A stretch of DNA of 64,000 nucleotides from positions 1,550,001 through 1,614,000 of the forward strand of contig NZ_SHKY01000001.1 in NCBI RefSeq assembly GCF_004217545.1. Reading direction: 5' to 3'. Of the stretch, positions 1,924 through 6,092 are shown one piece after another; the first letter of the stretch is position 1; each line of letters begins with the position of its first letter. Source of the stretch: Krasilnikovia cinnamomea. Lineage in GTDB: Bacteria; Actinomycetota; Actinomycetes; Mycobacteriales; Micromonosporaceae. The notes under the pieces are model-generated. The model was not told the DNA's origin and did no database searches. It saw only the letters and a list, made by a program, of their open reading frames with translations. The position numbers were made by a program, and so were the translations under genes.

Positions 1924-2403
1924 TCATCGCGGCCGGGCGACGGCCGCATCGCTGCTCAGGGCGGCCTCGCGCAGGGCCACGATCTCCTTCTCGAACTCGT
2001 CGAGCGAGTCGAACGCCTTGTAGACGCTGGCGAAGCGCAGGTAGGCGACCTGGTCCAGCTCCCGCAGCGGGCCGAGGATGGCCAGGCCGACGTCGTGGCT
2101 GGGCACCTCGGCGGCGCCCTTGGCGCGGATCGTCTCCTCGACCTTCTGAGCCAGCAGGGCGATGGCGTCCTCGTCCACGGGACGACCCTGGCACGCCTTG
2201 CGCACCCCGCTCATGATTTTCGTACGGCTGAAGGGCTCCGTGACGCCGCTGCGCTTGACCACCGCCAGCACCGCCTCCTCGACCGTGGTGAACCGCTTGC
2301 CGCATTCGGGGCAGGACCGGCGCCGGCGGATCAGCTGGCCGTCCTCGGCTTCGCGCGAGTCGACCACGCGTGAGTCCGCGTGCCGGCAGTACGGGCACCG
2401 CAC
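1924..2403 (-). CDS. nrdR: Transcriptional repressor NrdR
   Basis: Zinc-ribbon plus ATP-cone repressor of ribonucleotide reductase genes; it senses dATP/ATP. The 159-aa product has two CPxC pairs (near residues 3-6 and 31-34) forming the zinc ribbon, an arginine-rich [18 protein letters not shown] segment, and the ATP-cone that follows ([14 protein letters not shown] onward). I chose GTG 2403 over the longer in-frame start at 2433, because AGGAGG sits six bases upstream and NrdR proteins characteristically begin V/M-R-C-P. It is first in a two-gene unit with nrdJ, its expected target. The paired operator-like sites just upstream suggest autoregulation. Confidence 0.95.
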
Positions 2404-2520
2404 CGAAGTCCTCCTGTCGCCGGGTATGGTCACCTGTCCCCAGGCACGCCGAACAGCAGCACGGCCAAGATCAAACTCGGCTCGCGCTGTGCCTGAGCGT
2501 GCGGAGAAGCGGGGGCCCCA

Positions 2521-2689: not shown

Positions 2690-3082
2690 TCATCCCGTAC
2701 GGGGCAGTTCGCGGGCCTCACCGTGATCTACGGCATAGGCCGGGGCGGCGTGCCGGACCGGGGGCGCGGCGGCGTGCGACGCCGTGGTGAACAACACCAC
2801 GCTGGCGAGCGAGGCCAGCGCCAGGAAGAACAGGAACACGACCACCTCACCGCGGCGGGTCAGCCGCAACGGCGGCCGGTGCGGGCCGCCCGGCACCCCG
2901 CCGCCCGACACCCCGCCGCCCGACACCCCGCCGCCCGAGCGCGCACCGCCGCCGAACAGCGCACCGGTGGCCGCCACGCCGTCCGTCGCCGCGCGTCCCG
3001 ACGCCATGCCGCCGCCCGGCACGATGCCCGACACCATGCGGCCCGACACCATGCCGCCCGTCGCCACGCCGCTCGGCGCCAT
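2690..3082 (-). CDS. Small SOS-linked membrane protein divergent from lexA (DivS/Rv2719c position, no LysM)
   Basis: A 130-aa protein. A Gly/Ser/Val-rich low-complexity N-terminus (residues 1-70, with GGGVS repeats) leads to a positively charged [13 protein letters not shown] collar, one transmembrane helix (about residues 84-103) and a short tail of about 27 residues. ATG 3082 is preferred over the upstream in-frame start at 3241, because the longer form would place the SOS operators inside the gene; GAGAAGGGGG precedes ATG 3082. Genes at this position, divergent from lexA, usually encode SOS cell-division suppressors (DivS, Rv2719c/ChiZ), often as a membrane anchor plus LysM. No LysM is found here in any frame down to nrdR. 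A division-suppressor role is inferred from position and control only. Confidence 0.6.
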
Positions 3083-3097
3083 GCCCCCGCCCCCTTC

Positions 3098-3129
3098 TCG
3101 TACGGGCGTTCGATCGAACGCCCGTACGA
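3098..3129. promoter_or_regulatory. 32-bp perfect palindrome made of two opposed LexA-box-like sites
   Basis: The 32-bp segment is an exact palindrome centred on CGATCG. Each arm contains GAAC-N4-GTAC (3116-3127 reading rightward, 3100-3111 reading leftward), one base off the usual actinobacterial SOS core GAAC-N4-GTTC. It lies just upstream of the small membrane-protein gene's ribosome site and about 210 bp before the lexA start, so it suits control of the divergent pair. LexA binding is inferred. Confidence 0.6.
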
Positions 3130-3139
3130 TGGTGTACCA

Positions 3140-3151
3140 GAACAGGCGTAC
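3140..3151. promoter_or_regulatory. LexA-box-like site GAACAGGCGTAC
   Basis: A third GAAC-N4-GTAC site in the divergent lexA region. The same 12-mer, embedded in an almost identical CCAGAACAGGCGTACG-type context, recurs upstream of recA at 27723-27734. That recurrence supports a shared SOS operator variant in this organism. Confidence 0.6.
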
Positions 3152-3339
3152 GGAAGTCACGCACAGATGGGCGACACGCCGCAATCGACGTCGTACAGAT
3201 GTTTGAATATGTCCGACCGCGCCGATACGGTTCTGCGACAAGAGGGGTCAGCCGGACGAACACCCATCCCCACGGGCGTTCCCGGCTCCGCGACGCACCA
3301 CGTGCCGACAGGCACTGGCCGACAGGAGGGCGGACGGAC

Positions 3340-4131
3340 GTGTCGACCGACGACCGGACCAGCCGGCAGCATCAACCGGGCAGGAAGCCCGAGCCCACCA
3401 ACACCTCGGCGGCCATCCGCCGTCGCACGCCGAGCCGGGCCCGCGGCGGCGAGCCGCAGCTGCGCGCCGTGACGCCGGTCAGCCAGTTCCCGGAGCAGGT
3501 CACCACCGAACTGACCGCGCGCCAGCGGCGCATCCTCGAGTTCATCCGGGACTGGGTCGAGCGGCACGGCTACCCGCCGAGCGTGCGCGAGATCGGCGAG
3601 GCGGTCGGGCTGGTGTCGCCGTCCAGCGTGGCGTATCAACTGAAGGCCCTGGAGAACAAGGGGTTCCTGCGGCGCGACCCGAACCGGCCGCGCGCGGTCG
3701 ACGTCCGTACACCCAGTGAGCTGACCGACGACGAGGCCCTGCGTTCGGCCCGCCCCGCCCCGGCCTACGTGCCGCTGGTCGGGCGCATCGCCGCCGGTGG
3801 CCCGATCCTGGCCGAGCAGGCCGTCGAGGACTTCTTCCCGCTGCCGCGCGAGCTGGTCGGCGAGGGTGACGTCTTCATGCTGGAGGTCAAGGGCGACTCG
3901 ATGATCGACGCCGCGATCTGCAACGGCGACTGGGTCGTCGTGCGCCAGCAGCCGACCGCCAACGCGGGCGACATCGTGGCCGCGATGATCGACGGCGAGG
4001 CGACCGTCAAGAGCTACCGCCAGCGGGACGGGCACGTGTGGCTGATGCCGGCGAACCCGGCGTTCGATCCGATCCCGGGCGACGACGCGACCATCATGGG
4101 CCGCGTCGTCGCGGTGCTGCGCCGGGTCTGA
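3340..4131 (+). CDS. lexA: SOS repressor LexA
   Basis: Represses DNA-damage genes and self-cleaves when RecA filaments form. The 263-aa product has the winged-helix domain ([20 protein letters not shown], then [20 protein letters not shown]) and the S24 peptidase domain. The cleavage bond is A152-G153 in GRIAAGGP. The catalytic dyad is S187 (KGDSM) and K224 (ATVKSY). GTG 3340 is chosen because GGAGGG lies nine bases upstream; an in-frame start at 3199 would add 47 unconserved residues. The Arg/Pro-rich first 60 residues before the DNA-binding domain are long but ordinary for actinomycetes. It is divergent from the small membrane protein and probably autoregulated through the shared boxes. Confidence 0.97.
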
Positions 4132-4192: not shown

Positions 4193-6001
4193 TCAGCGCC
4201 CGTATCCGGGCGGGTCGTACGGGCGGCCCGTGCCGGGCGGCCGGTCGTCGTCCGGCGGGCCGTCGTCGGAGCCGAACCAGCCGTTCGGCAGCGGGTTGTC
4301 GCCCGGGCGACTGCCCGGTGGTGGTCCCGCCGGGGGCGCTCCGTAGACACCGCCGCCGGGGCGGGCAGGCTGGCCGCCGCCGGCGCGGCCGGGCGGACCG
4401 GCACCCGGCCCGGGAGGCGGCGCGGGTCGACCGGCGGGCGACATCGGACGTCCGGACGGAGGGCCGGGCGGACCAGCGGGCGGGCGGCCGGGGTGCTGTC
4501 CGTTGGGCTGCGGTCCGCGCGGATGCTGTCCGCCGGGCTGCGCGCCGCCGGGCTGCGGTCCACCGGATTGCGGTCCGCGGGGATGGCCGCCGAGCTGCTG
4601 TCCGCGGGGGGGCTGTCCGGCGGGGTGTCCGGGACGGCCTTGGGCGGGGCCCGGGTGGCCGCCGGGCGCGGCCCCGGCCGAGGGGCCACCGGAGTAGACG
4701 CCGCCGCGCGATGGTGCCGGCGAGTGGGGTTTGGTGCCGTACACGCCGCCGCCGGGGGGTGGCCCGCCCCGGTTGGCGCCGTACACCGGTCCGACGCCGG
4801 GCGGCCGGGCGCTCAGCGGTGCCGCCGCCGGGCCGCCGACCGACAGCAGCTCCGTCTCGGCGTCGGCGGGTTTCGGAGCGGCGGCCGCGGGCGCGGGTGA
4901 GACCGGTTCGAGCGCCGGCTTCTTGCGGGAACGCATGATGCCGCTGACCCCGAGCCCCACGAGCAGGGCGCCGAGCGCTCCAACGCCGCCGACCATGTAG
5001 GTGAGGTCCTTCAGGCTGAGTTCGGAGTACCAGGCCGGGCTCGCGCTGTCCTGGGGGGTCTTCGCCTTCGCCCCCGCGCTGACGACCTGCGTGGCCGGGG
5101 TGTAGCGCAACAGGAAGTTCGCCGTGTCCGCGCTGAACTGCCCCATGTCGGACACGGTGACGTACGCCTTGCCGTCCGGGGTGTAGCTGATCGCCTCACC
5201 GAACGGCTCATTCGGCAGTGGCGTCTGACGCGGGGTGCCCTTCAGCGCGGCAACCATGTCCCCGCCCGTGACGTCCCATTCGAAGGCGTCGGCGTAGGTG
5301 CGGATGACCACCTTCGTGCCGTCGGGCGAGACCGCGGCACCGGTGGCGACCAACCGACCGACCGGTCCCAGCGGGTTGGCCGTGTCGGACGACGGGAGGG
5401 TGACCTCGCCCACCCGGCGCAGCGGCACCCCGTCGGCGCTGTCGGCCTTGAGCGCTGCGGCGGGCTTGTACAGGCCAGCCTTGCCGGCATCCTTGGTCAC
5501 CACGATCGGGATGCCGTCGCCGTCGAGGAGCAGCCCCTCGGCGTCGTGCGCGCCGTCGGGGTACTTCAGCCGGTACAGCGTGGGGCTCTTCGACCCGGTC
5601 GCGGGCATCTTCCAGAGCGCGATGGTGGCGCGCTTCTTGTCGTTGTCACCGGTGTCGCCGATCCACAGCGTCTTGCGGTCCCGGGAGAGCGCCATGTCCT
5701 CGGTGTCCAGCGGGCCCTTGCCCGAGTAGGGCACCGCATTCGTGACCTTGCACGTCTGGTCGAGGTAGAAGACCTTCTTCTGGGTCTCGCGGTCCGTACT
5801 GTCGTTGACGGTGATGAAGCCGTTCGTCGTCGCCACCAGTCCGGACAGCTCGGTGAGCCGGGTGTCCTCGACCTTGCAGAGCTTCTTGGCGGGCGCTGCC
5901 TTCACGTCCGCGGCCACGGGAGCCGGCATGGCGTGAGCGCTGGCCGCACCCACCATGACCAGGCCACCAGCCACTAGGATCGAGAACACGAGACGCCGCA
6001 T
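4193..6001 (-). CDS. Secreted propeller-like protein with one membrane helix and a long Pro/Gly-rich cytoplasmic tail
   Basis: A 602-aa product. It begins with a signal peptide (MRRLVFSILVAGGLVMVGAA, cleavage probably after AHA), followed by an extracellular domain of about 300 residues. That domain has repeated short strands such as TEDMALSRDRKTLWIGDTGDN and AHDAEGLLLDGDGIPIVVTK, the style of beta-propeller/phytase-like domains. One transmembrane helix lies near residues 337-357 (GGVGALGALLVGLG), then RSRKK, then about 240 residues of Pro/Gly/Gln low complexity. ATG 6001 starts at the signal peptide; upstream in-frame starts add residues unlike a signal. I do not recognise a named family. 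The layout suggests a surface sensor or binding protein with an intracellular scaffold tail (inference). Confidence 0.7.
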   Translation of the reverse strand: MRRLVFSILVAGGLVMVGAASAHAMPAPVAADVKAAPAKKLCKVEDTRLTELSGLVATTNGFITVNDSTDRETQKKVFYLDQTCKVTNAVPYSGKGPLDTEDMALSRDRKTLWIGDTGDNDKKRATIALWKMPATGSKSPTLYRLKYPDGAHDAEGLLLDGDGIPIVVTKDAGKAGLYKPAAALKADSADGVPLRRVGEVTLPSSDTANPLGPVGRLVATGAAVSPDGTKVVIRTYADAFEWDVTGGDMVAALKGTPRQTPLPNEPFGEAISYTPDGKAYVTVSDMGQFSADTANFLLRYTPATQVVSAGAKAKTPQDSASPAWYSELSLKDLTYMVGGVGALGALLVGLGVSGIMRSRKKPALEPVSPAPAAAAPKPADAETELLSVGGPAAAPLSARPPGVGPVYGANRGGPPPGGGVYGTKPHSPAPSRGGVYSGGPSAGAAPGGHPGPAQGRPGHPAGQPPRGQQLGGHPRGPQSGGPQPGGAQPGGQHPRGPQPNGQHPGRPPAGPPGPPSGRPMSPAGRPAPPPGPGAGPPGRAGGGQPARPGGGVYGAPPAGPPPGSRPGDNPLPNGWFGSDDGPPDDDRPPGTGRPYDPPGYGR

Positions 6002-6092
6002 CGGACCAGTGTCGCATGCGGCGCACCGTGCTGGCGTCACGCGCGGATCGGCCCAGGTGCGCACGCCTGTCGTGTCCGTTATGCCCGGATGA

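Follow-up and report, generated by a model that had tools for sequence, protein, structure and literature searches.

A LysM-less gene, probably of the ChiZ/YneA type, beside lexA in Krasilnikovia cinnamomea and repeated loss of LysM in its family

The gene facing lexA in a 64,000-nucleotide stretch of the Krasilnikovia cinnamomea genome (here called the window) is probably the lexA-linked SOS division inhibitor of its lineage, of the ChiZ/YneA type, from which an in-frame internal deletion has removed the LysM domain. The initial annotation had assigned this gene, which lies under LexA boxes, to the DivS/ChiZ/YneA kind, and the LexA pair, orthology, and gene order all agree with that assignment; such a gene could work, if it does so at all, solely via its head and membrane segment. 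In the window, the order is nrdR, the 130-amino-acid (aa) gene, and lexA, with the 130-aa gene divergent from lexA (Table 1). Its open reading frame (ORF) has an ATG at 3082 and a stop codon at 2690-2692, and the frame is open further upstream. The start was chosen on the basis of operator spacing and a purine-rich stretch; in-frame GTG codons occur further down the head. We infer division inhibition by this gene from homology, its operator, and the literature. Nearby, an adjoining minus-strand ORF of 623 aa (window 4193-6064) carries a long Gly/Pro/Gln-rich low-complexity tail at its end.

Table 1. Features of the lexA locus in the window
Feature	Position	Strand	Remark
nrdR	1924..2433	minus	
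LysM-less ChiZ/YneA-type orthologue (putative), 130 aa, single-helix membrane protein behind LexA operator	2690..3082 (incl. stop codon)	minus	
Apparent worn remnant of LysM C terminus, residues 115-130	2693..2740	minus	Profile score
Conserved core (residues 71-102), made up of juxtamembrane PLRLTRRG and the membrane helix as far as TAS	2777..2872	minus	
Gly-rich repetitive head, residues 1-70	2873..3082	minus	Probably cytoplasmic, by the positive-inside rule
Purine-rich stretch between operator and ATG, likely ribosome-binding	3083..3097	minus	Sequence
Predicted double LexA operator: two directly adjoining 16-bp boxes that form a perfect 32-bp palindrome	3098..3129		
lexA-side LexA box, 61 bp from double operator	3191..3206		
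lexA, GTG start read from sequence	3340..4131	plus	

Each half of the double LexA box is one mismatch away from the consensus, and 15 bp separate the site from the ATG. A search of the 7.6-Mb genome allowing up to 3 mismatches gave this double site and no other; single boxes with 0 or 1 mismatch number 60, versus 14 for the reversed pattern. The abutting pair is kept in 57 of 66 loci of the genus at ≤3 mismatches in total and in 64 of 66 at ≤4, and 14 double operators among these 66 loci are perfect palindromes. The lexA-side box is identical, and 60 to 61 bp from the pair, in every one of the 66. We predict from these sites a LexA operator at the promoter of the window gene.

The encoded protein consists of a 70-residue Gly-rich head, a 32-residue core, and a 28-residue tail. 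The head contains repeats with periods of 12, 15, 30, and 45 and a single weak row of period 7; its GC fraction at third codon positions is 0.957, versus 0.867 for the core plus tail. An AlphaFold2 model built with 26 orthologues showed one confident helix, at residues 76-104, and no other helix or strand (mean pLDDT of 95 over residues 81-100, overall mean of 64.4). Long heads are found in four loci of the genus (L011, L017, L030, and the window, with 41, 57, 71, and 71 residues before LRLTRRG), in LysM and LysM-less forms alike; the head measures 10 to 22 residues in the other 62.

The initial annotation had described a 130-aa product with a repetitive head, one helix, a short tail, and no LysM. 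The ORF, the Pfam and NCBIfam results, a six-frame search, and the model bear this out, except that the last 16 residues resemble a worn LysM C terminus. Pfam returned no match to the protein at E values up to 1, and no NCBIfam model matched it. When a LysM-bearing orthologue was compared with the window locus in six frames, it matched only over its residues 16-65 of 114, before the DTLW motif. A LysM search of the whole genome found 5 places, none of them at the lexA locus. A frameshifted LysM in the window is ruled out, since neither the genome LysM, the six-frame, nor the Pfam search found a LysM at the locus. We also ruled out that a LysM partner had moved elsewhere, as no second copy of the LysM orthologue was detected in six LysM-less genomes (G000 and five of the helix-only form) at an E value of 0.001.

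Scored against a profile of 38 LysM C termini, the last 16 residues of the window protein ranked above each of 533 tails from other ORFs (shuffle fraction, 0.0007), with 7.1 bits, far lower than the at least 25.8 bits of true LysM tails. The score fits an internal in-frame deletion, which appears to have removed most of the domain and left a weak C-terminal remnant; the ends of the deletion are uncertain, as two alignments place part of the tail on the LysM start instead.

To evaluate how the gene varies among relatives, we fetched 30 loci by similarity, one being the window's own, and found lexA and nrdR on either side in all 30. In order to avoid choice by gene similarity, we also used lexA as a sampling bait in 67 genomes of the genus and 140 of the family, 138 of the latter giving a match. 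This added 36 genus and 60 family loci, for a total of 126. In one genus genome (G033), no primary lexA match passed the threshold and just a second LexA-like one turned up, so that 66 of the 67 were counted. The forms were first sorted by motif, with three loci (L063, L091, and L092) labeled by hand, and Pfam then agreed for the genus loci. Helix plus LysM, in proteins of 105 to 166 aa, is the form at 38 of the 66 genus loci, and a head-plus-helix-only form, ending two residues past the core, occupies 27 (45 aa in 17 and 46 aa in 10). The remaining locus is the window, with 130 aa and no LysM. The alignment of orthologues proposed in the initial annotation thus revealed an even shorter, helix-only form kept in a separate clade, and the window version stands alone in the genus. 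That annotation had also held that full LysM relatives combined with a frameshifted window copy would speak against function; LysM relatives do exist, at the 38 loci, but the window copy is in frame.

Sequence comparison establishes common descent of the window gene with helix-plus-LysM members within the genus. Two LysM-bearing orthologues match the NCBIfam model "cell division suppressor protein YneA" with E values of 1e-10 and 2.3e-11, at 41.4 and 43.5 bits versus a cutoff of 60 bits, and it is this match below the cutoff that hints at kinship of the family with YneA itself.

We then considered 80 named family loci, of which one was skipped and 79 were scored by motif alone; they overlap with the sampled genomes and are not independent. 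The LysM form was seen in 28 and the short form in 11, while the gene was not found in 40, indicating that it is dispensable over long times. The 11 short loci all come from named species of Actinoplanes. The LysM form occurs in records labeled Paractinoplanes, Amorphoplanes, Winogradskya, Couchioplanes, and Jidongwangia and in three labeled "Actinoplanes sp." (M2I2, RD1, and KI2). Judging from its named members, we infer that the 27-locus clade corresponds to Actinoplanes in the strict sense. Two family loci (L069 and L117) have the core and a tail without a Pfam LysM. At a further locus, L075 (G120), helix and LysM are spread over three frames, either as a pseudogene or through an assembly error. 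In Micromonospora, Verrucosispora, and Salinispora (L161-L206), the division-inhibitor gene was not found between lexA and nrdR. Of 40 gene-less Micromonospora-type loci, 38 retain a second LexA box, which in 34 lies 68 to 70 bp from that of lexA. Apart from one weak candidate in L174, no membrane ORF follows this box, whose role may be to control lexA itself or an RNA.

Whether LysM was lost once or several times was assessed with a lexA plus nrdR tree of 107 loci, 19 of the 126 being left out. It contained 30 short forms, namely, the 27-locus clade, the window, L069, and L117, with L075 treated as a frameshift-broken LysM form. The 27 short loci made up one clade (100/100) and the window fell outside it, in an unresolved fork; a single loss shared by the window and this clade was compatible with these two genes alone (AU test, P = 0.278). 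A nine-gene DNA data set (9273 columns, 21 taxa) included five of the 27 short loci. In the resulting tree, these five taxa grouped with six LysM taxa to the exclusion of the window (100/100), and forcing the window together with them cost 123 log units. One shared LysM loss is rejected by the nine-gene DNA data (AU test, P = 3.4e-5), which implies at least two separate losses of LysM in the genus.

Selection on the 32-codon core was evaluated with our own GY94-type fit, in which the lexA/nrdR tree was kept fixed and a single scale factor applied, using 37 of the 38 LysM forms (L063, with the motif LTQRG, was omitted). The core dN/dS was 0.126 in the short clade, with neutrality rejected (2ΔlnL of 257 against 1), and 0.075 in the LysM forms; values for the membrane part alone were 0.120 and 0.108, respectively. 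For lexA plus nrdR in the short clade, dN/dS was 0.030. A joint fit gave 0.147 for the short clade including its stem versus 0.071 (2ΔlnL of 26), a significant but mild relaxation. Since hydrophobicity alone also restrains helix codons, a low core dN/dS points to a maintained membrane protein and not to its target. Together with the retained operator, it indicates that the helix-only form is maintained in the 27-locus clade. The window branch, at 0.117, resembles the background (2ΔlnL of 0.16) and is far from 1 (2ΔlnL of 44); this branch spans time before the LysM deletion, so the selection evidence for the window copy partly predates that event.

The window core aligns over all 32 codons with no gap, and the juxtamembrane RLTxRG is invariant. 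The E that follows LTRRG in the window is unique among 65 loci, the position being R in 26 of 27 short and in 37 of 37 LysM forms and K in one short form. At core position 25 of 32 (window residue 95), the window and 26 of the 27 short forms have V or I, and 35 of 37 LysM forms have A; the V or I is possibly tied to LysM loss.

We favor a helix-based, LysM-independent delay of septation as the mode of action, because the natural LysM-less forms side with the result reported for ChiZ. LexA would occupy both boxes of the abutting pair, over the promoter, and DNA damage would remove it from there. The protein would then insert N-in/C-out, and its helix would bind the septal wall-synthesis complex, through FtsW TM7 as for YneA or through FtsI/FtsQ as for ChiZ. 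Such binding would delay septation, any contribution of LysM being dispensable in the LysM-less lineages. Against LysM-independent action, the YneA helix alone is described as not blocking division in Bacillus subtilis (PMC13396833). More tentatively, we propose that a two-part, wall-binding SOS inhibitor may have turned purely intramembrane on separate occasions, into a 45- to 46-aa peptide in Actinoplanes and into a helix with a long disordered head in the window lineage. Septal wall synthesis would then be blocked by helix contacts alone, and LysM would be a dispensable module rather than the warhead.

The main rival is decay of the window copy, broken by the LysM deletion, with operator and frame persisting because little time has passed. 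The copy represents a single lineage with an R-to-E change at an otherwise R/K position, an expanded repetitive head, and a worn LysM remnant, and elsewhere in the family, the gene was not found at the 40 named loci and is frameshifted at one locus (L075). Yet the deletion and most of the head repeats kept the frame, the core is ungapped, the branch dN/dS is low, the operator is a perfect palindrome, and helix-only relatives are under selection, so that we regard decay as unlikely though worth serious consideration. The window copy is likely functional. Between the minimal inhibitor and the decayed gene that the initial annotation offered as alternatives, the purifying selection in the 27-locus clade favors a functional minimal form as a class.

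TisB is a membrane-acting SOS peptide, and DinQ, an SOS single-helix peptide (PMC3567139), provides a further precedent for a product that disturbs the membrane rather than binding the divisome. The LexA boxes, the one hydrophobic helix, and the length of 45 to 46 aa in the helix-only clade would suit such a peptide, but descent from a YneA-like protein of helix plus LysM and the invariant RLTxRG make it improbable. Least credible of all is an untranslated ORF whose operator alone counts, serving lexA as a LexA site. The second box without a clear membrane ORF in the 38 gene-less Micromonospora-type loci speaks for this reading; codon-level selection on the core and a length constant at 45 to 46 aa in 27 of 27 loci speak against it.

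ChiZ (Rv2719c) of Mycobacterium, whose gene presumably adjoins lexA and nrdR, resembles the window protein in this placement, in its disordered head, and in its one helix. It differs by a 53-residue LysM (PMC7355643), which is lost in the window protein. According to PMC7355643, citing other work, the N-terminal region plus helix of ChiZ suffices for filamentation; ChiZ is described as contacting FtsI and FtsQ, with a dispensable LysM (PMC7355643, PMC3989709). YneA of B. subtilis is, like the window gene judged by its predicted operator, an SOS-induced single-helix protein, but its LysM is described as required and as doing the blocking, with the helix localizing via FtsW TM7 (PMC13396833). 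By description only, three LysM-less or small inhibitors can be likened to the window protein. DivS of Corynebacterium glutamicum is reported as an actinobacterial SOS division suppressor near lexA (PMC3989709) without LysM (PMC6851548), and SosA of Staphylococcus as a LysM-less single-helix SOS inhibitor of 77 aa beside lexA (PMC6851548). The extracellular part of SosA is said to matter for toxicity (PMC13396833), whereas the 45- to 46-aa form has just two residues after the core. Streptomyces is said in PMC9380542 to be without clear homologues.

We know of no LysM ancestry for the third, SidA of Caulobacter. SidA is described as a small inhibitor that resides in the membrane and acts on the complex at the septum (PMC13396833).

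LysM-less SOS inhibitors were already known from DivS and SosA; what is new is repeated loss within one family. In the literature searched, which left most subscription papers outside its scope, we found no earlier report of one family in which helix-plus-LysM proteins had repeatedly become helix-only, with a 45- to 46-aa form kept across a clade, and titles on Actinoplanes yielded nothing on the gene. Since the bare membrane segment is still under selection after a separate loss, LysM seems dispensable in the helix-only clade. The need for LysM differs between the two studied members, being described as required for YneA (PMC13396833) and reported as dispensable for ChiZ (PMC7355643, PMC3989709). 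Natural repeated loss with a selected helix allows this need to be tested by exchanging LysM-bearing and LysM-less versions from close relatives, and the 45- to 46-aa form may represent the minimal functional core of this class of inhibitors.
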